Of a stretch of 64,000 bases of DNA, positions 45,517-56,314 are shown in pieces (positions within the stretch are counted from its first letter, which is position 1; every line of letters begins with the position of its first letter). The DNA is from Spirirestis rafaelensis WJT71-NPBG6 (lineage in GTDB: Bacteria > Cyanobacteriota > Cyanobacteriia > Cyanobacteriales > Nostocaceae): NCBI GenBank assembly GCA_019359015.1, contig JAHHID010000009.1, positions 62,001 to 126,000 of the forward strand, given 5' to 3'. The notes below the pieces were generated by a model. The model did not search any database and had not been told where the DNA came from. It saw only the letters and a program-made list of their open reading frames with translations. The translations under genes and the position numbers were made by a program.

Positions 45517-46257
45517 TTAGGAGTTATGATGTTTAACTTTTGACTCATCATTATTGAGGGTGCTTTGGGAATTGCGAGCTAAATGACCATCTTCCATTTC
45601 CAAGATGCGATCGGCAATATCCAAAATGCGGTTATCGTGCGTTACTAGCAAAATAGAGGTTCCCTGCTCTTTGGCAAGAGTTTGCATTATTTCTACCACA
45701 TCGCGTCCTGATTGTTTGTCTAAAGCTGCTGTGGGTTCGTCTGCTAGGACTAGAGGGGGATGGTTGACCAAAGCGCGAGCAATCGCTACTCTTTGTTTTT
45801 GTCCCCCAGAAAGATTATCTGGGAAATAATTAACCCTGTCATTTAAACCTACAGCTTGAAGCATCGCTTCTGATTTATTAACCGCATGTTGCTTAGAAAC
45901 CTCTTTGTTCAGTTCTACTGCCATTTGCACATTCTGCCTAGCGTTTAAGAACCCCAACAAGTTATGAGCTTGAAAAATATAACCAATATTACGTCTCATT
46001 TCTACCAGTTTACTCTGGCTGGCTCCAGATAGTTCTTCACCTAAAAATTTTAAGCTTCCTTCTTGCACAGACCTCAGCCCACCAATCAGGCTCAGTAATG
46101 TTGTTTTACCTGAACCTGATGGTCCGGTCATAATTACAATTTCTCCGGCATAAATCTCAAGGTTTATATCAAATAAAATTTGTTTTTTCAGCGAGCCTTT
46201 ACCGTAGTAATGGTTAATGTTTTTGATATCGATTACAGGTTTTTTTGTCATTGTCAT
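45517..46257 (-). CDS. devA: DevA-family ABC exporter ATP-binding protein
   Basis: 246 residues. Walker A is GPSGSGKTTLLSLIGG, Q-loop IFQAHNLLGFL, signature LSGGQKQRVAIARALV, Walker B LVLADEPTAALD, H-loop LLVTHDNRI. The MacB/LolD-like pattern fits DevA, the ATPase of the DevBCA exporter that lays down the glycolipid layer of heterocysts with TolC. It is the third gene of the devB-devC-devA order on the minus strand, 31 bp after devC. Assignment to the heterocyst system rests on gene order and the NtcA promoter. Confidence 0.92.
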   Translation of the reverse strand: MTMTKKPVIDIKNINHYYGKGSLKKQILFDINLEIYAGEIVIMTGPSGSGKTTLLSLIGGLRSVQEGSLKFLGEELSGASQSKLVEMRRNIGYIFQAHNLLGFLNARQNVQMAVELNKEVSKQHAVNKSEAMLQAVGLNDRVNYFPDNLSGGQKQRVAIARALVNHPPLVLADEPTAALDKQSGRDVVEIMQTLAKEQGTSILLVTHDNRILDIADRILEMEDGHLARNSQSTLNNDESKVKHHNS

Positions 46258-46288: not shown

Positions 46289-47443
46289 TTAAAATATATC
46301 TGCTGGATCAGCGGCTTCTAATTTACGCACGGCGATCGCACCGGAAATAAAGCACATTAAGATAGTTAAAATTAGCACCATTATAGCGCGTTCCAAACTC
46401 ATGAAAACTGGTAAAAGTGTTGCATCTTTAGCCAGATTATATAAAAACATCGTAAAAGCCCATCCAGGCATGTATCCTAAAACTGCTAAAATTAAAGCTT
46501 CTTGAAGAATCACAAATAATAAGTACTTTTGTGTATAGCCTATTGCCTTTAAGGTAGCGTATTCAGCTAGGTGTTCTGTAACTTCGCTATAAAGAATTTG
46601 ATATACAATCACGGTTCCGACAACAAAACCCATGATTGTACCTAAGGTGAAAATAAATCCAATCGCTGTACTGCTTGCCCAATAATTTCTTTCAAAGTCG
46701 ATAAATTCTTCTTTAGTTAATACATTGATTTCTTTCGGCAAATAACTTCTCAATTGTTGGACAACTAAGTTAGCATTTGCTCCCGGCTTTAATTTAATCA
46801 AACCAATATCAATCAATCCTCGCTGTCGATTGCCAAATATTCTAAAAAAATTAACATCGCTAGTAATTAAATTTCCATCTGCTCCAAATGATGCACCTAA
46901 AGTAAATAGTCCAGCTACTTTAATTTGCCTAGCTCCAACTTCTGCTGTTACACTTTTGCCTTGCTCAAAGTTAGCAACAATCGGACCATATTCTGTTCGA
47001 GAAGAACGGTCATATAAAACTACATCGGGCAGTTTAAGTTTATCTAAATTTTCTTGAACTCCAGGCAAGTCAAATACATTAACTTCTGGGTTCATAGCTA
47101 AGGTGAGAATACTACGAGGGCGACCTGTAACAGGATTTTTCCAAGTTACGTACCCTAAATATATAGGATGAACAGATTGTACTGTTGGTAAATCTAAAGC
47201 TTTGTATAACCGCCTTTGTGAAAAGCTTTTCATTGCCAGTACGGCGTTAGATTGAGAGTTAATTAAAACAATATCACCTTGCAAACTGCTATGCATCCGG
47301 ACGTTACTATAATATAGGGCATCCCGGAAACCAAGTTGCATAAACATGAGAACATCGGCAAAAGCAATTCCTGCCAGAGCCACGATAAGGCGAGTTTTTT
47401 CGCGTGTTAATTGTAGCCATGCTAAAGGTATTTTGGAACTCAT
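46289..47443 (-). CDS. devC: DevC-family ABC exporter permease
   Basis: 384 residues. FtsX/MacB-type permease: N-terminal helix (RLIVALAGIAFADVLMFMQL), a large periplasmic domain (about 40-265), then three helices starting FIFTLGTIMGFVVGTVIVYQ, VILQEALILAVLGYMPGWAF and IMVLILTILMCFISGAIAVR. The LAEYATLKAIGYTQKYL segment before the last helices is typical of the family. DevC forms the inner-membrane part of the DevBCA exporter. Middle gene of the cluster, 45 bp after devB. Confidence 0.93.
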   Translation of the reverse strand: MSSKIPLAWLQLTREKTRLIVALAGIAFADVLMFMQLGFRDALYYSNVRMHSSLQGDIVLINSQSNAVLAMKSFSQRRLYKALDLPTVQSVHPIYLGYVTWKNPVTGRPRSILTLAMNPEVNVFDLPGVQENLDKLKLPDVVLYDRSSRTEYGPIVANFEQGKSVTAEVGARQIKVAGLFTLGASFGADGNLITSDVNFFRIFGNRQRGLIDIGLIKLKPGANANLVVQQLRSYLPKEINVLTKEEFIDFERNYWASSTAIGFIFTLGTIMGFVVGTVIVYQILYSEVTEHLAEYATLKAIGYTQKYLLFVILQEALILAVLGYMPGWAFTMFLYNLAKDATLLPVFMSLERAIMVLILTILMCFISGAIAVRKLEAADPADIF

Positions 47444-47488: not shown

Positions 47489-48907
47489 CTAGATGTTGAT
47501 TTCGACAACTACTTTGGCGTTAGTTAAACCACCTACTTTTTGGCTAGCTTCTTGAGGTAAGGCGATTTTTACTTCTACGACTCTGGCATCTACATCTGCT
47601 GCTGGATCTGTATTTAAGACATCTTTTTTGCCAATTTTTCTGCCAACTTCAACGACAGTTCCCTGGAATTCGCCACTAAAAGCACCGTTATCGCTGGCAA
47701 TTGTGGCTTTTTGACCCAGACGTACTTTGCCAATGCTGTCTTCGGGAACTTCGGCGATCGCAATCATTTGATCGGTTCTTCCAATCTCAGCGATGCCATC
47801 TACACTCATGTTTTCTCCCGCTTTAGTGTGAATTTTGATGACTTCTCCGGCGATGGGTGCGGCAACGTAGCTTAATTTAAGTTCTGCTTGGGCTTTTCTG
47901 ACAGCTGCGATCGCATTACTAACTTGAGCTTGTGCTATCAGTGCATCGGTGGGACGAACTTCTAAAAGTCTGTTGAATTTGGCTCTTTCTTCGTCAATTT
48001 GCCTTTGCAATGTCGCTATAGTTTTGTCGCGGTTGACTTTGGCTTCAATCAACTGCTGTTGTAAGGTTGCTTGACTTTGTATTTGGTTTGCTCTGGCTTC
48101 GGCAAGTTGTTGTTGTAAAGTTGCTTTTGCTTGCCTCAAGCTGGCTTGGCTTTCAGCAACTTGCTGAGAAGAAGTTACTGCACTCAAGCGTCTTCTGTCC
48201 CATTCTTGCTGAGAAATCGCACCTTCTTTGTATAATGTTTCATAGCGTCGAGCATCGACTTGGGCGTTGTTAGCTTCTGCTTGGACACGATTAACCGTGG
48301 CTCTTAAAGTATCTCGTTGTCCTTGTAGCTCCGCTTCTAGACGATTAACCGTTGCTTGTTGGGCGATTTTTTCTCCACTTAACTGAGCAGCAATGCGAGC
48401 GATCGTTGCTTGTTGAGCTTGACTTTCACCTCTTAACTGAGCCTGTAAACGAGCAATTACCGCTTTTTGAGCTTGAATGTCTCTTGGTGAACCGGCTCTT
48501 ACTTGGGCTAAATTGGCGCGGGATTCTTGCAGTTTTGCTTTGGCTTCTTCCACTGCTGCTGTTTGGCTATCGTGGTTATCCAAAATCGCCACTATTTGAC
48601 CTTTCCTAATTCGCTCTCCTTCTTTCACCAAGATTTGGTCAACTCGTGAAGAAGCTTGCAGTCCTGCGGTTGGAGCAGATAATTTAACTATTTCTCCTCG
48701 CGGTTCTAAGCGTCCTACAGCACTGATACTAGTAACAACTGGTGCTACTGGTACAGAGGTGCTAAGTTTTTTTAGCTGCTCAATTCTGGCTGTAGCTAGT
48801 ACTCCAGAGGCAATGACTACTGGTAGGGCAACAGCAATACCCCACCAAATCTTAGGTTGATCAAGTGGTTGTTCCCTTGACCTTAAATTTTCATTCACCC
48901 TTGACAT
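47489..48907 (-). CDS. devB: DevB-family membrane fusion protein of an ABC exporter
   Basis: 472 residues. One membrane helix near residues 25-42 (WGIAVALPVVIASGVLATA), a lipoyl half (ISAVGRLEPRGEIVKLSAPT, VDQILVKEGERIRKGQIVAI), a very long coiled-coil hairpin made of repeated QA-A-IARLQAQLRGES-like units (about 120-330), the second lipoyl half (SYVAAPIAGEVIKIHTKAGE) and a beta-barrel. In the DevBCA system it joins DevC to TolC. First gene of the cluster, with a predicted 783-nt leader and an NtcA-type promoter upstream. Paralogues of this exporter are common; the promoter favours the heterocyst one. Confidence 0.92.
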   Translation of the reverse strand: MSRVNENLRSREQPLDQPKIWWGIAVALPVVIASGVLATARIEQLKKLSTSVPVAPVVTSISAVGRLEPRGEIVKLSAPTAGLQASSRVDQILVKEGERIRKGQIVAILDNHDSQTAAVEEAKAKLQESRANLAQVRAGSPRDIQAQKAVIARLQAQLRGESQAQQATIARIAAQLSGEKIAQQATVNRLEAELQGQRDTLRATVNRVQAEANNAQVDARRYETLYKEGAISQQEWDRRRLSAVTSSQQVAESQASLRQAKATLQQQLAEARANQIQSQATLQQQLIEAKVNRDKTIATLQRQIDEERAKFNRLLEVRPTDALIAQAQVSNAIAAVRKAQAELKLSYVAAPIAGEVIKIHTKAGENMSVDGIAEIGRTDQMIAIAEVPEDSIGKVRLGQKATIASDNGAFSGEFQGTVVEVGRKIGKKDVLNTDPAADVDARVVEVKIALPQEASQKVGGLTNAKVVVEINI

Positions 48908-49015
48908 GGTATATTGTCCGTTTGATTGTGGTGATTGAAGTAAAAGACGTAGTTGGATTAGTCAAAAAAAATTTAGCTTTCTAGCTGAATAATGATAAAT
49001 AAACGCGGATTTAAT

Positions 49016-49170
49016 CTAGTAAAGGCTTTAGCCCTTAAAAGCAAAGCTATGAGCGGTGAGCCAGCGCGGTCTTGGGGAGCCACCTCCGTGCGCGGGTTCC
49101 CCGCGTTGAGGAGAGTGGCGTGGTTTCCCCCATGAGCGACTGGCGAACCCGAAGGGTTTACCACTCACTA
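49016..49170. repeat. Family A repeat interrupted by a second palindromic repeat (nested)
   Basis: Left arm CTAGTAAAGGCTTTAGCCCT to GAGCGGT (49016-49057) and right arm GGTTTACCACTCACTA (49155-49170) match the intact 55-bp unit at 23167. Between them lies about 97 bp beginning CCAGCGCGGTCTT, which also starts the repeat mosaic at 580. So one small mobile repeat has inserted into another, and the same insert is found twice in the window. Confidence 0.78.
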
Positions 49171-49345
49171 CGAATTCAAAGCATTTTAGCTATTAACTAA
49201 GCAAATAAATATGCAGTGCAGCATCTAGCCTTTTACGAGCAAAAGGCAATATTTACTAATTATTTAAGATGGCTATAGTTACTACAAATTTTGCTTGTCT
49301 GGTCAGATACACCTGGTTAATTTTAGTTCATGCTATAGCAATCTT

Positions 49346-49415
49346 ATTTCCGGATTGAAAATTGCCATTTTTCAGATACCCGATTTATTAGACAAGTCGG
49401 GCATTTTGTTTTTTT
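49346..49415 (+). ncRNA. Candidate small RNA antisense to the devBCA leader
   Basis: An extended -10-like TGCTATAGC (49331-49339) lies about 40 bp before a strong terminator-like hairpin: CCCGATTT/AAGTCGGG arms (49379-49401) followed by CATTTTGTTTTTTT. No plus-strand gene precedes it, so the terminator needs a transcript to end. A 70-nt RNA is predicted. Expression is not shown. Confidence 0.28.
49379..49415 (+). terminator. Rho-independent terminator, plus strand
   Basis: 8-bp stem (one G-T pair) with a 7-nt loop and a T-rich tail. It faces the plus strand within the predicted leader of devB, where no plus-strand gene is seen. Confidence 0.65.
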
Positions 49416-49696
49416 AACAAATCATTTACGGAGTTTTACACGCAAATGAAGTTATAGTATTTCTCATTCAAATCCTAGACTACACGTCTCACAGGCAAGT
49501 GATAAAGCACTTGTACCTATCAAAATTTGGTTTATTCAACACTACTGGTTATTGATTAATTACTCTTCTAATTTGAAACAATTTAGAGTATTATCAACTT
49601 CACAGTTTCCTGAGTTTTATAGTCATCCTGTTAGTATAATTACTCGCTGCTTTGTGTCGTGCTATTTTTTGACTCCGTTAAACTGTTGTTTTCTGA

Positions 49697-49738
49697 ATTC
49701 TACATTCATGATTTGTAGGAAAACGTAGCAGAGCTTAC
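49697..49738 (-). promoter_or_regulatory. NtcA-activated promoter of devBCA
   Basis: On the minus strand, GTAAGCTCTGCTAC (49738-49725) is a perfect GTA-N8-TAC NtcA box. Exactly 22 nt later TAGAAT (49702-49697) fits the TA-N3-T -10 box. This is the canonical spacing of class II NtcA promoters. The start site would be near 49690, about 783 nt before the devB ATG. It sits just downstream of a terminator that isolates it from pcyA. Confidence 0.75.
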
Positions 49739-49780: not shown

Positions 49781-49828
49781 AAAGTGACAATAATTATAAT
49801 TATTGAATTATTGTCACTTTATTTTTTT
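49781..49828. terminator. Strong bidirectional hairpin between pcyA and the devBCA promoter
   Basis: AAAGTGACAATAATT and its perfect 15-bp complement around a 10-nt loop, followed by ATTTTTTTG on the plus strand and by TTTTTC on the minus strand. It would end the pcyA transcript and shield the NtcA promoter. Confidence 0.7.
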
Positions 49829-49854: not shown

Positions 49855-49918
49855 TCAGGCTGGAAGCCTGGAGCTAAACGAACAAAGCCCACCTGCGTGG
49901 GCTGAATTAAGCGCATCT
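49855..49918 (+). repeat. Dispersed palindromic repeat (family B), copy 1
   Basis: TCAGGCTGGAAGCCTGGAGC then ACGAACAAAGCCCACCTGCG and TGGGCTGAATTAAGCGCAT: two hairpins joined by a CGAACAAAG linker. Other copies are at 51386 (same strand) and 56672 (opposite). Copies 1 and 2 flank the pcyA-Uma2 pair. Confidence 0.85.
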
Positions 49919-49946: not shown

Positions 49947-50681
49947 TTAATTTGGTAGGTCAAATAACACTGTAGTCATATAATTTTCAGCCCAATCTGA
50001 ACCAAATGCTTTTTCAAGTACGCGACGGGTTTTGTCGTTTTGTTGCTGTTTGGTGCAGTAATTATGCTGTCCGGCGATGATTTTTAATACTTGTTCTGGG
50101 GAAGCAGGATTGGAAGCGATCGCTCTAGTACAATGAATATCTAAAAAGTCTCGCACACGCGACAAAAACAGCGTTTCTTCTTCCGGAGAACCGGGACGAA
50201 CAAAGATACAAAATTCCGAAAAGATATCTCCCCATTCTGGTAATTCACGGGGTTGAGAAAAGTTGGGTGCAGGTAACGCAGAGAGTTCAGAGTTATACGC
50301 TTCTGGTAAAGTGCGTTGTGAAAGCGGAGATAAATCAGCGATCGCAGCACTAATTTGACCTCTACCCCCGACTAAATCGCAACCAAACATCGGTAAGTCG
50401 TATTCTGGACGGGGAAACATAACACAGTGCAGAATATCTAACATAGTTCCCACTTTGGCTAGTTCCAAGTGCATCTTGCGGAACTGCGGTGTTTGATAGC
50501 AGCGATTTTCAATCGTCAGCTTTTCACCTTCGAGTCTACCTTCTACATATCCCAACTCGGCTGGCAAATGGTAAGGTGATAAATCAAGGTGCTGATGCCA
50601 AGCAGCTTCAATAGTATCAGCCAATTGCCGAATTAAAGGATGTTGTTGCTCGCGCAGTGAGGGTGTAGAAGCTAGTGACAT
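49947..50681 (-). CDS. pcyA: Phycocyanobilin:ferredoxin oxidoreductase
   Basis: 244 residues. It reduces biliverdin IXa by four electrons to phycocyanobilin, the chromophore of phycobilisomes and phytochromes. Catalytic Glu73, His85 and Asp102 lie in [20 protein letters not shown] and [20 protein letters not shown], matching Glu76, His88 and Asp105 of the Synechocystis enzyme. The [20 protein letters not shown] and [20 protein letters not shown] blocks are also typical. Start at 50681. The Uma2 gene upstream is unrelated. Confidence 0.97.
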
Positions 50682-51839: not shown

Positions 51840-54800
51840 TCACTTTGCACTACCAACCCCATCGCACAGATGCTTGTCATTCTCACTCGCAGTCTGATTA
51901 TTCTGCAAATAATTACGCACCCAATCGCAACCGCGCACCATTAAATTATCTAAATCCAAATTCCACAAAATTACTGTTTTGTCATAACTGCCAGAAGCCA
52001 AGGTTTTGCCATCCGGGCTAAAAGCGACGCTATTGACCGCATGGCTATGCCCACTCAGGGTTTGCGAAAGTTTGCCTGTTGCCACATCCCAGAGTTTGAT
52101 GGTCTTGTCTTCACTGCTAGCCAAGGTTTTGCCATCGGGGCTAAAAGGGACGCTATTGACCCCATCGCTATCCTCAGTCAGGGTTTGCTTTAGGTTGCCT
52201 GTTGCCACATCCCAGAGTTTGATGGTCTTGTCTTCACTGCTAGCCAAGGTTTTGCCATCGGGGCTAAATGCGACGCTCTTGACGATATTGCTATGCCCAG
52301 TCAGGGTTTGCGAAAGTTTGCCTGTTGCCACATCCCAGAGTTTGATGGTGCTGTCAGCACTGCCAGAAGCCAAGGTTTTGCCATCGGGGCTAAATGCGAC
52401 GCTAATGACCCCACTCCTATCCCCAGTCAGGGTTTGCGAAAGTTTGCCTGTTGCCACATCCCAGAGTTTGATCGTCTTGTCTTCACTGCTAGAAGCCAAG
52501 GTTTTGCCATCGGGGCTAAATGCGACGCTATAGACGACATTGCTATGCCCAGTCAGGGTTTGCGAAAGTTTGCCTGTTGCCACATCCCAGAGTTTGATGG
52601 TGCTGTCAGCACTGCCAGAAGCCAAGGTTTTGCCATCGGGGCTAAATGCGACGCTAATGACCCCACTCCTATCCCCAGTCAGGGTTTGCGAAAGTTTGCC
52701 TGTTGCCACATCCCAGAGTTTGATGGTGCTGTCAGCACTGCCAGAAGCCAAGGTTTTGCCATCGGGGCTAAAAGCGACGCTATTGACCGACTCGCTATGC
52801 CTAGTCAGGGTTTGCGAAAGTTTGCCTGTTGCCACATCCCAGAGTTTGATGGTATTGCCTTCACTGCCAGAAGCCAAGGTTTTGCCATCGGGACTAAAAG
52901 CGACGCTCCTTACATACTCGCTATGCCCAGTCAGGGTTTGCGAAAGTTTGCCTGTAGCCACATCCCAGAGTTTGATCGTCTTGTCCCAACTGCCAGAAGC
53001 CAAGGTTTTGCCATCCGGGCTAAAAGCGACGCTATTGACCGACTCGCTATGCCCACTCAGGGTTTGCGAAAGTTTGCCTGTAGCCACATCCCAGAGTTTG
53101 ATCGTCTTGTCTTCACTGCCAGAAGCCAAGGCTTTGCCATCGGGGCTAAAAGCGACGCTATGCCCAGTCAGGGTTTGCGAAAGTTTGCCTGTTGCCACAT
53201 CCCAGAGTTTGATCGTCTTGTCTTCACTGCCAGAAGCCAAGGTTTTGCCATCCGGGCTAAAAGCGACGCTAATAACCACATTCCTATGCCCAGTCAGGGT
53301 TTGCGAAAGTTTGCCTGTTGCCACATCCCAGAGTTTGATCGTCTTGTCTTCACTGCCAGAAGCCAAGGTTTTGCCATCCGGGCTAAAAGCGACGCTAAAG
53401 ACCAGATTTCTATCCCCAGTCAGGGTTTGCGAAAGTTTGCCTGTTGCCACATCCCAGAGTTTGATCGTCTTGTCACCACTGCCAGAAGCCAAGGTTTTGC
53501 CATCGGGGCTAAAAGCGACGCTATTGACCCACTCGCTATGCCCAGTCAGGGTTTGCTTAGGGCTGCCTGTTGCCACATCCCAAAGTTTGATCGTCTTGTC
53601 ACTACTGCCAGAAGCCAAGGTTTTGCCATCGGGGCTAAAAGCGACGCTATTGACCGACTCGCTATGCCCTTGCAAGCGGTTGCGTTCTTTGACATTATAA
53701 ACAGCGTTGAGCAACGTACCTACAACTTGTAGAGGAGGATTATGTTTTGAACGCAGTGGTTTTGCAGAACGTAAAGCTTCGATGAGGGCATCAAACTTTT
53801 TGCCTTGATTGAAAAGTTCAGTGGAATACATAGCCAGAGCCTCAATTTGACCAAGCTGATTTTGTTGTGCTTGCTGCAATTGCCAAAAGCCAAAGCCAGC
53901 CAATATCAAAGCACCTACAAAACCACCAGTCAACCCAAAAATAGTTTGTTGTCGCCGGCGTTTCTCTTGCTGCTTCTCCGTATCTCGTTGTTGTCTGCTA
54001 ACTGCAATAAAATCTCGTTCCTCCTGGGTCATTTCCTCCCCGCGTTTGTGCAGCCAATCTTCTGCTACAGCCAACGGCGCACCTCGCAAAAACGCTCCAT
54101 AATTGCGATCGCTATTTTTCCACTCTCGTAATCCTACCTTTAACCGCTCTTGCCAAGTGCGAAACTGACGGTTAGCATTTATCCACTCTCGCAAAGTTTC
54201 CCATTCCCGAATCAGCGCTTCATGCACCACCTCTACCGTATCTTCCGGAGAAACCTCTCCCCCAACCCCTCCCCTACGAGGGGAGGGGCTTTGAGAATCC
54301 GTCTCCCCCTTCCCTTGCAGGGAAGGGGGCAGGGGGGTTAGGTCTCCCCCCGTCACCACCAACCGAGCTTGATATCCCGCTAAATAACTCACCAAGCCCC
54401 AATTATCTTTCCCAACCTCCGCACGAGTCGCGATGCGTCGAGTATCCTCCGTTCCCTCCCCAGGACGCACTAATTGCACAAAAATTCGCTCTGCCTGTTT
54501 TTGCTGTGACTCATTAAGTTGTTGATAAACCAGTTCTGCATGATTAGCGATCGCCTTCTTCACACCGCCAATTTCATCGTATGCTTGGTGAGTTAACACC
54601 CGGTTTTGTTGCTTCTCCCACAGTCGAGTTAAAGCAAATTCCAACAAAGGCAAGTTACCCGGTTCTTGTCCGACATCATCCAAAATTCGTTGCGTCAGTT
54701 GCCCTTCTAATTGCACCTCTAGCTTTTGTGCCGGTAGTGCGATCGCTGCTTTCAGTTCCTCCCGTTTCATCGAACTCAACAACTGAGGTGTAAACTCCTG

Positions 54801-55982
54801 CAACGCATCCCGAAACGGACGGTAGGAAAGCACATAACCGTAAAAGTCAGCTCGTAACGTGAAAACCAGTGTCATTTCTGGAGAAATAGCCGAGAGGATT
54901 GCATCAGCAAAGCTTTCTTGTTCTTCCTTCTGGCAAAGCGTATAAAGTTCTTCAAATTGGTCTGCAACTAACAACAGACGTTTACCACCGTTGCGTTCTT
55001 TGATGCTATACGCTACTTGCTGCAAAGTAATTCTACTGGACTGCATATCACCTGCCAGTCCCGCAGCTTCCCGCAGTAGTCCAGTTTCACTCAGTTCTGG
55101 CTCTAATAAACGCACCAACGCACAAGCCAACTGATAAAATGGTTGATTACCAGGACGGAAAGATGAAATCAGCCAGTTTCCCTCACTTCGCAACTGCGGA
55201 ATCAGTCCGGCAAACACGATAGAAGATTTACCACTACCACTCGGACCAACCACACCTACCAAAGGCTGTTTGCGAGTCGTCTGAACTAACTCATTTACAA
55301 AAGTTTCCCGTCCAAAAAAGAAAGCTGCATCTTCTTCCCCAAAAGCAGACAATCCCTGGTAAGGGTTGGGTGGAATAACATCAGTTTCAAAAGTAGTCGA
55401 GACATCAGTTAATTCATTTTTCTTCAAAACCGGAGTCTGATGCTCCAAAAAACCCATCATCTGAGTGCAGCCTAACTCATAGGCAAACTCCACATCTTCC
55501 CCAGCACCGAGCGCATCGTAAAAAGCCACAGCAAAGGCAACAGCTGCTTTATCACCCACAGCTTTATTCATGCCAATGACATATTTTACATATTGGCTAA
55601 TAGCCTCTGCTTGCACTTCTGAATAACAAGCATTGAGAACAACACACTCTACACCCTTTCTCGCAAACAGCTTAAACATACTTGCCAGCGCATCAGCTTG
55701 TACATACACCGTCTGCTTCGTCTCATTTTCCAGGATAATGCCATCCTCAGCAGTCCCGTGTCCGCAAAAGTGAACAATCTGCGGTTGAGTGTCGAGAATA
55801 GCGCGGTAAAAATCACGCGATCGCACTGCCCACTTTTGCTTTAAATCAAACTCGTCCCGCTTATTTGCTCGTTGCAATCCCTCATCAATTTCCCGCACTT
55901 CTACATCAAGTTGCAGTTTAGAAGTATCTCTGGGATTCGCTGCCAACAGCAAAATCGTTTTTACACGCGCTTTATTATTCAT
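51840..55982 (-). CDS. CHAT protease domain - nSTAND1-like NTPase - 14 x WD40 repeat protein
   Basis: 1380 residues from ATG 55982 (MNNKARVKTILLLAANPRDT). Residues 1-190: CHAT caspase-like domain, catalytic His75 in IVHFCGHGT and Cys119 in VVLNACYSE. Residues 205-600: STAND NTPase of the nSTAND1 kind (NPYQGLSAFGEEDAAFFFGR; Walker A GPSGSGKSS at 246-254; Walker B LLLVADQFEELY at 336-347; VEVVHEALIREWETL near 585). A coiled stretch and one hydrophobic helix (IFGLTGGFVGALILAGFGFW, near 680-700) follow, then 14 WD40 units to residue 1345. The layout matches signal-sensing conflict or regulated-proteolysis NTPases. A low-complexity repeat sits in frame near 541-578. Upstream ATG 56033 is less likely. 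Confidence 0.92.
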   Translation of the reverse strand: MNNKARVKTILLLAANPRDTSKLQLDVEVREIDEGLQRANKRDEFDLKQKWAVRSRDFYRAILDTQPQIVHFCGHGTAEDGIILENETKQTVYVQADALASMFKLFARKGVECVVLNACYSEVQAEAISQYVKYVIGMNKAVGDKAAVAFAVAFYDALGAGEDVEFAYELGCTQMMGFLEHQTPVLKKNELTDVSTTFETDVIPPNPYQGLSAFGEEDAAFFFGRETFVNELVQTTRKQPLVGVVGPSGSGKSSIVFAGLIPQLRSEGNWLISSFRPGNQPFYQLACALVRLLEPELSETGLLREAAGLAGDMQSSRITLQQVAYSIKERNGGKRLLLVADQFEELYTLCQKEEQESFADAILSAISPEMTLVFTLRADFYGYVLSYRPFRDALQEFTPQLLSSMKREELKAAIALPAQKLEVQLEGQLTQRILDDVGQEPGNLPLLEFALTRLWEKQQNRVLTHQAYDEIGGVKKAIANHAELVYQQLNESQQKQAERIFVQLVRPGEGTEDTRRIATRAEVGKDNWGLVSYLAGYQARLVVTGGDLTPLPPSLQGKGETDSQSPSPRRGGVGGEVSPEDTVEVVHEALIREWETLREWINANRQFRTWQERLKVGLREWKNSDRNYGAFLRGAPLAVAEDWLHKRGEEMTQEERDFIAVSRQQRDTEKQQEKRRRQQTIFGLTGGFVGALILAGFGFWQLQQAQQNQLGQIEALAMYSTELFNQGKKFDALIEALRSAKPLRSKHNPPLQVVGTLLNAVYNVKERNRLQGHSESVNSVAFSPDGKTLASGSSDKTIKLWDVATGSPKQTLTGHSEWVNSVAFSPDGKTLASGSGDKTIKLWDVATGKLSQTLTGDRNLVFSVAFSPDGKTLASGSEDKTIKLWDVATGKLSQTLTGHRNVVISVAFSPDGKTLASGSEDKTIKLWDVATGKLSQTLTGHSVAFSPDGKALASGSEDKTIKLWDVATGKLSQTLSGHSESVNSVAFSPDGKTLASGSWDKTIKLWDVATGKLSQTLTGHSEYVRSVAFSPDGKTLASGSEGNTIKLWDVATGKLSQTLTRHSESVNSVAFSPDGKTLASGSADSTIKLWDVATGKLSQTLTGDRSGVISVAFSPDGKTLASGSADSTIKLWDVATGKLSQTLTGHSNVVYSVAFSPDGKTLASSSEDKTIKLWDVATGKLSQTLTGDRSGVISVAFSPDGKTLASGSADSTIKLWDVATGKLSQTLTGHSNIVKSVAFSPDGKTLASSEDKTIKLWDVATGNLKQTLTEDSDGVNSVPFSPDGKTLASSEDKTIKLWDVATGKLSQTLSGHSHAVNSVAFSPDGKTLASGSYDKTVILWNLDLDNLMVRGCDWVRNYLQNNQTASENDKHLCDGVGSAK
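51955..53688 (-). repeat. Fourteen nearly identical WD40 coding units (126 bp each)
   Basis: Most units are 42 codons. They share the core SVAFSPDGKTLASGS and TIKLWDVATGKLSQTL. Variation is concentrated just after GH/GD (SESVN, SEWVN, RNLVF, RNVVI, SEYVR, RSGVI, SNVVY, SNIVK, SDGVN, SHAVN) and at the residue before DKT or DST. Units 9 and 11 are identical in protein sequence. Unit 5 lacks five residues and units 12-13 lack one. Fourteen units suit two seven-bladed propellers. Confidence 0.92.
54250..54354 (-). repeat. Intergenic-type low-complexity repeat embedded in the NTPase coding region
   Basis: CCCAACCCCTCCCCTACGAG then GGGGAGGGGCTTTG, followed by CTTCCCTTGCAGGGAAGGGG, encodes LTPLPPSLQGKGE and QSPSPRRGGVGGEVSP. 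Hairpins of this type are intergenic elsewhere (29887). It keeps frame in a loop just before VEVVHEALIREW. Confidence 0.78.
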
Positions 55983-56314
55983 CAGAGAATAAGTGTAATG
56001 GTTTGTACAAGCCCGTACTATTACCAGTACCACTACAACTGCTCATCTAGTCTTTACAGATAGAGTAATTTTATTATTGCCCTAAATAAACATCAAGACG
56101 CGATTAATCTTGGCACAGACGCGATTAATCGCGTCTCTACAACGGTTGCGGACATGATATTGCCTATTCAAGGTAATTTTATGGCGATCACACTCACCAT
56201 TTCACCAAACGTAAAGTTATAAGACAAGCACTTTGCAACAGAATTAGTTATTTTGTAGTCTAGGTTACAGAAATATTATTAGATAGACCAATCAATTAAA
56301 GGGAACACAAAGCC
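55983..56314. other. Intergenic region with GACGCGATTAATCGCGTC palindromes
   Basis: Divergent spacer between the CHAT gene and a small plus-strand gene. It holds a half copy AGACGCGATTAATC at 56096 and the perfect palindrome at 56117. Bases 56160-56310 would carry promoters; none is clear. Confidence 0.5.
56117..56136. repeat. Perfect 20-bp palindrome AGACGCGATTAATCGCGTCT
   Basis: A dispersed short palindrome, found again at 56570 on the other side of the 83-residue gene and, in altered form, at 28291 and 32431. Confidence 0.85.

Follow-up and report, generated by a model that had tools for sequence, protein, structure and literature searches.

Organization of the devBCA locus

The window, i.e. 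the whole 64,000-nt stretch of DNA analysed here, carries devB, devC and devA on the minus strand and pcyA upstream of them on the same strand, and each of the four gene products scores above the cut-off of its NCBIfam model (Table 1). Between pcyA and devB lies the element under study, a putative promoter that precedes devB-devC-devA in their own orientation. Read directly from the window letters, its NtcA box is GTA-AGCTCTGC-TAC (GTAAGCTCTGCTAC, 49738-49725, minus strand), which conforms to GTAN8TAC and begins at -831 relative to devB. The hexamer TAGAAT follows after 22 nt, giving a class II -10 element of the form TAN3T at the canonical distance and on the right strand; the original prediction of GTA-N8-TAC, an exact 22-nt gap and TAGAAT in this orientation is matched exactly in letters and coordinates. 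For the distance between box centre and transcription start, 39.5 nt is one figure in use. According to the available text of PMC3898017, the NtcA box of class II promoters is centred 41.5 nt upstream of the start; this rule puts the predicted start at 49690; the devB ATG (48907) is then 783 nt away, which reproduces the distance that had been claimed.

Table 1. Features of the devBCA locus and its upstream region (window coordinates)
Feature	Coordinates	Strand	Evidence and remarks
pcyA	49947..50681	-	NF002760, 377.8 bits, cut-off 206 (NCBIfam)
Second terminator-like hairpin, behind pcyA	49886..49903	-	terminator scan and fold, z -2.02
Terminator-like AT-rich hairpin, 15 pairs, short T-run	49781..49820	-	dG -14.6 kcal/mol, z -5.35; not listed by terminator scan
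NtcA box GTAAGCTCTGCTAC	49725..49738	-	GTAN8TAC in the same arrangement in 77/77 devB loci
22-nt spacer	49703..49724	-	mostly GTTTTC at one end, AAATG/GAATG at the other (alignment)
-10 hexamer TAGAAT	49697..49702	-	identical in 78/78 (window and 77 loci)
Conserved transcribed start (predicted)	49672..49696	-	consensus TCATTnAACnAnAGTTTgATGGAGT; AGTTTgATGGAGT in most relatives
Predicted transcription start	49690..49692	-	39.5-41.5 nt from box centre; the 41.5-nt end by the class II rule (PMC3898017, available text)
Leader, ~783 nt (predicted)	48908..49690	-	little conservation in most of the middle; terminator scan lists none on the sense strand
GC-rich dispersed repeat with strong hairpin	49031..49180	-	45 genome matches (whole or part, itself included); dG -67.4, z -4.28
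Conserved block directly before devB ATG	48908..48945	-	alignment and BLAST coverage
devB	47489..48907	-	TIGR02971, 302.8 bits, cut-off 129 (NCBIfam)
devC	46289..47443	-	TIGR01185, 686.9 bits, cut-off 290.35 (NCBIfam)
devA	45517..46257	-	TIGR02982, 378.8 bits, cut-off 295.8 (NCBIfam)

A hetR-type match is also found in this genome. Elsewhere in the window, 51840-56033 on the minus strand encodes a protein of 1397 aa that contains, judged by eye, numerous almost identical WD40-like repeats; these repeats seem to be mirrored in the long ORFs on the opposite (plus) strand.

Conservation of the promoter block

By itself, the motif is weak evidence for a promoter. The window's own genome matches GTAN8TAC-N22-TAN3T 46 times and the reversed control of this pattern 54 times, i.e. 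there is no whole-genome enrichment of the motif over this control, and the motif alone therefore proves little; these numbers are also what speaks for a chance match without function. Within the window, the form with a spacer of 20-24 nt has 6 matches (2.15 +/- 1.25 in 60 second-order Markov sequences), and GTAN8TAC alone occurs 20 times (8.8 +/- 3.0 in shuffles). At the genome rate, 0.003 matches with the exact spacing are expected per 1040 nt of one strand.

The comparison with other devB loci is of a different kind. Loci were chosen by the DevB protein alone, as the best 80 of 162; they represent the closest relatives and are non-independent, with a DevB 94-95% identical to that of the window in Hassallia byssoidea, Tolypothrix brevis and Plectonema radiosum. 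Three of them (L011, L079 and L087) with less than 200 nt of upstream sequence were excluded from the count, which left 77 loci with 1.6 kb upstream. GTAN8TAC-N22-TAGAAT is present in all 77, at a variable distance of 389-1464 nt before the ATG, and the same block thus lies in the same place in other genera. An additional GTAN8TAC-N18..26-TAN3T was seen in the same 1.6 kb of five of the 77 loci (six in all), and GTAN8TAC is absent from the 1.0-1.5 kb upstream of the four closest DevB-like paralogs. The 78 sequences (window and 77 loci) comprise 64 distinct 42-mers, and the alignment gives the consensus ATCT-GTA(A/G)GnTCTGnTAC-GTTTTC...AAATG-TAGAAT-TCATTnAACnAnAGTTTgATGGAGT.

The leaders of these loci mostly fail to align with that of the window. 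With the window counted, BLAST coverage of its leader reaches 66-75 of the 78 sequences from the box to ~+23, falls to 1-11 at the points sampled in mid-leader, and returns to 58-69 over the ~30 nt directly preceding the ATG. When a Nostoc sequence was used as the query instead, the loci matching its mid-leader numbered 20-50 and were kin of the query. On these alignments, the block from the box to ~+23 is a conserved island within a mostly unalignable leader. As the length after the -10 hexamer ranges from 347 to 1422 nt in the 78 sequences (median 785), most of the mid-leader seems to be dispensable. Two loci of genus g6, whose hexamer is TAGACT, have 262 and 228 nt after it, and their conserved start element lies 13 nt further from the -10.

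The block was also searched for without reference to devB. Among 291 genomes of the order, GTAN8TACNTTT-N18-TAGAAT matched 33 and the reversed control 1. Of those 33, 23 fall among the 29 family genomes, or 22 of 29 once G111 is dropped, since its match resembles a sequence that recurs in four outside genomes and does not lie beside devB. The form with TACGTTT occurs in none of the 262 non-family genomes of the order, hence in none of the 10 outside matches. In the 3 kb examined, devB was found at 20 of 20 family-type loci versus 0 of 9 outside matches (29 loci besides the window's own). Extended to 217 family genomes, with positions taken among the matches listed, the search for GTAN8TACGTTT-N18-TAGANT found the block in 158 genomes and 41 of 56 genera, one genome having two copies; the reversed control had matches in four genomes. 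Conservation on this scale takes the promoter match far beyond chance. We regard a chance match as refuted by the 77 of 77 loci and the 158 of 217 genomes, and its probability as next to nil.

Linkage to pcyA and the question of insulation

A strong terminator just upstream had been proposed to isolate the promoter from pcyA. What stands is a stable hairpin at 49781-49820 (z -5.35), and two related stretches were seen in L009 and L085; its 15 pairs, however, are mostly A-T and its T-run is short. Insulation itself does not hold as a general feature. In 72 of the 77 loci pcyA lies upstream on the same strand, separated by a gap of 21 to 2207 nt (in the other five it was not found in the available sequence), and in 21 of these 72 a mere 21-39 nt separate the pcyA stop from the start of the box, so that a terminator would hardly fit in between. 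The terminator scan did not list the 49781-49820 hairpin and can therefore miss AT-rich sites; on the minus strand between the promoter and devB it listed none.

The leader and its conserved start

The conserved start of the leader raises the alternative that a short regulatory RNA or a leader peptide is the main product of the promoter, and that devB is driven from a nearer one. The conservation of ~25 nt after the -10 fits this reading, as does the ATGGAG that 69 of 101 loci carry in the 60 nt following the -10, exactly at +18 in 61 of the 69; moreover, the available text of PMC3898017 describes a proximal, NtcA-controlled devB promoter in Anabaena. For a peptide, however, the frame opened by ATGGAG has a median of 20 codons compared with 19 in the next frame and 9 in the third, it is reduced to 2-3 codons in 11 of the 69 loci, and where a 30-codon frame exists (15 loci), variation is highest at the second codon position. 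In addition, the window has ACG, i.e. ACGGAG within 49672-49696 where most relatives have ATGGAG, and nine loci of genus g5 are without the element. A micro-ORF at the conserved ATGGAG was rejected on these frame lengths and codon-position variation. A short RNA is opposed by the fact that no sense-strand terminator is listed in the window leader, in a scan that can miss AT-rich ones, and that no Rfam family reaches its gathering threshold; a nearer promoter is opposed by the absence of the Anabaena proximal block from the window. Taken together, we consider a short RNA or peptide quite unlikely to be the main product, and a promoter that serves devBCA through a long leader remains our preferred reading.

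Several other candidates in the leader were rejected. Pairing of the leader start with the block before the ATG gave a mean duplex energy of -11.15 over 86 distinct pairs versus -11.72 for permuted ones, and the conservation of 49672-49696 is explained by neither the coding nor the pairing test. The Rfam matches below threshold, i.e. plastid psbA 3'UTR (on the hairpin), CRISPR-DR28 (on the pcyA hairpin), mir-509 and SNORD44, were put down to chance or generic hairpins. A DIF1-type TCCGGA occurs in 1 of 101 loci, that of the window, versus 7.9 expected by composition, and was therefore taken as chance.

Two further observations concern the leader region. Many Nostoc-type loci (L029 and others) have a second site, GTACCGCATCATAC or a sequence 1-2 bases off, within the leader at ~-275 to -950, and a TAN3T 18-26 nt after such a site was seen in L063 and L067 only. 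On the plus strand, a terminator-like hairpin with a T-run lies at 49379-49401, antisense to the devB leader; the main text of an antisense paper (PMC10287535) names neither devB nor alr3707-3710.

Absence of the distal block and presence of a proximal block

Of the 59 family genomes negative for TACGTTT, 31 were examined (5 from one search and 26 from another). A relaxed block was found in 16 and none in 12; the three others were left out of judgement, G321 and G346 having 284 and 113 nt of upstream sequence and G471 no devB match at the E-value set. The relaxed blocks have other letters after TAC, the hexamers TAAAAT, TATAAT or TAAGAT, or spacers of 21-23 nt; G441 has one changed half-site, and the weakest is that of G449 at -1415. 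As 12 of the 31 lack a recognisable block, it appears that the devBCA operon can do without it.

Five of these absences are in genus g2 (G035, G077, G111, G467 and G469), where neither the distal block nor pcyA was found in ~6 kb upstream. What speaks against this absence are bare matches to GTAN8TAC and TAN3T, in G035 at -4695 and in G111 at -991; the latter is without the flanking letters, and the DNA around it aligns with a region that in L060 lies 2.3-2.6 kb upstream of devB. All 12 g2 devB loci seen have a proximal block, AAATAAAGTCA(T/C)nTA(A/G)(G/A)TTGCAGAAAA, of which G274 has a further variant (by eye), and within this block lies GTCATCTAAGTTGC, which the available text of PMC3898017 describes as a non-consensus NtcA site of Anabaena. 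The strict proximal pattern was found in 5 of 217 family genomes, all of g2, and from the shared block we infer that g2 is probably the genus of Anabaena 7120. L060 and L068 also carry the proximal block and are probably the same strains as two g2 loci or their near kin; with up to 3 mismatches allowed, the proximal site has one other match among the 78 leaders, in L030 (2 mismatches).

The distal promoter persists, in one form or another, at seven of the 12 g2 loci and is missing from five. Among the seven, pcyA lies beside the promoter in four (G274, L192, L194 and L196) and was not found within the 1.5 kb examined in three (L195, L198 and L199), so that loss of the box is not simply the result of loss of pcyA. 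The box is gone with pcyA still upstream of devB in g137 (G339 and G343), g130 (G317, with only 2.3 kb upstream available) and g149 (G370). The pcyA-devB intergenic regions of g137 and g130 (L223, L224 and L225) share by eye an AT-rich block, ATCTTGA(T/C)AATAGATATATAAT, which ends in TATAAT and is possibly a different devB promoter. G220 (g11) and two g13 genomes have neither block nor pcyA in ~6 kb. All eight genomes tested, including five that lack the block, gave a hetR-type match.

These absences, together with the other blocks found in their place, suggest a turnover of devBCA promoters: the distal promoter would have served most genera, been joined by the proximal one in g2 and then been lost from 5 of the 12 g2 loci, and g137 and g130 would have lost the box and come to share the TATAAT-ended block. 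We give this course of events about an even chance. A literature search, which left out most subscription journals, found no paper on the conservation or turnover of devB promoters.

NtcA as the probable regulator and relation to known promoters

Sites of CRP-family proteins resemble each other, and the box could in principle be bound by another member of the family, e.g. DevH, instead of NtcA; nine further, weaker matches to the NtcA model in the genome give this some substance. However, only one match passes the cut-off of that model (TIGR03697, 383.1 bits, cut-off 244.95), so that the genome encodes one NtcA by this measure. Moreover, the layout that the available text of PMC3898017 gives for NtcA class II promoters is a GTAN8TAC centred ~41.5 nt from the start together with TAN3T, and NtcA control of devBCA in Anabaena is stated in the parts available of PMC3898017 and PMC6161253. 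Another protein at this box is thus very improbable. The available text of PMC3898017 further counts devB/devBCA among the known NtcA targets, with devB recovered by ChIP among earlier sites. We therefore hold that the site is very probably a nitrogen-responsive distal promoter of devBCA, activated by NtcA in class II fashion; cross-species conservation and PMC3898017, as far as available, bear out the proposal of an NtcA-type devBCA promoter with a long leader parallel to that of Anabaena.

As to how it would work, we infer the binding of NtcA, the start site and the timing. When combined nitrogen runs out, 2-oxoglutarate would rise, and an NtcA dimer would bind GTAAGCTCTGCTAC in place of a -35 element and recruit RNA polymerase to TAGAAT; transcription would then run from ~49690 through the long leader into devB, devC and devA. 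By analogy with Anabaena, where DevBCA and HgdD form the glycolipid exporter (PMC6161253, available text), the DevBCA exporter would carry glycolipids to the heterocyst envelope. An Anabaena sigE mutant has a lower devBC transcript, according to the available text of PMC4390870.

The window promoter is orthologous to the canonical distal promoter of devBCA in Anabaena, which is already described. That promoter, in Anabaena sp. PCC 7120 and A. variabilis, is reportedly the subject of work by Fiedler in 2001 and Camargo in 2012, with starts said to lie at -704, -762 and -454, the first two being distal. The two reportedly have in common a canonical NtcA box and TAN3T far upstream of the same operon. 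The same arrangement is seen in L060 (Nostoc parmelioides; GTACAGTCTGTTAC, N22 and TAGAAT at -770) and L068 (Anabaena subtropica; GTACACTCTGTTAC, N22 and TAGAAT at -857). The window differs from the Anabaena locus in the hairpins that separate pcyA from the box, in the dispersed repeat of its leader and in the lack of a second, proximal block. The proximal promoter, with its site GTCATCTAAGTTGC, drives the same operon under NtcA control in Anabaena (PMC3898017, available text); with as many as 3 mismatches allowed in 14 positions, or 10 in 29, its block was not matched anywhere in the leader of the window, and the two-promoter arrangement is absent from the window. The layout, i.e. a box ~41.5 nt before the start and TAN3T, is also that of the class II promoters of glnA, nirA, urtA and ntcB in the same available text, from which the window differs by its long predicted leader (~783 nt). 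What is new is the comparison: the fixed spacing across genera, the absence of the block in some, and the other blocks found there instead.

Biological significance

A promoter found by reading has turned out to be real and widespread, and motif matching alone would have been insufficient as proof. If the proposed turnover is true, the two-promoter devB of the model strain would be transitional and peculiar to its lineage, rather than what holds in general. Strains with the distal block only, with both, or with the proximal one only constitute a natural experiment on why heterocyst genes have several nitrogen promoters.
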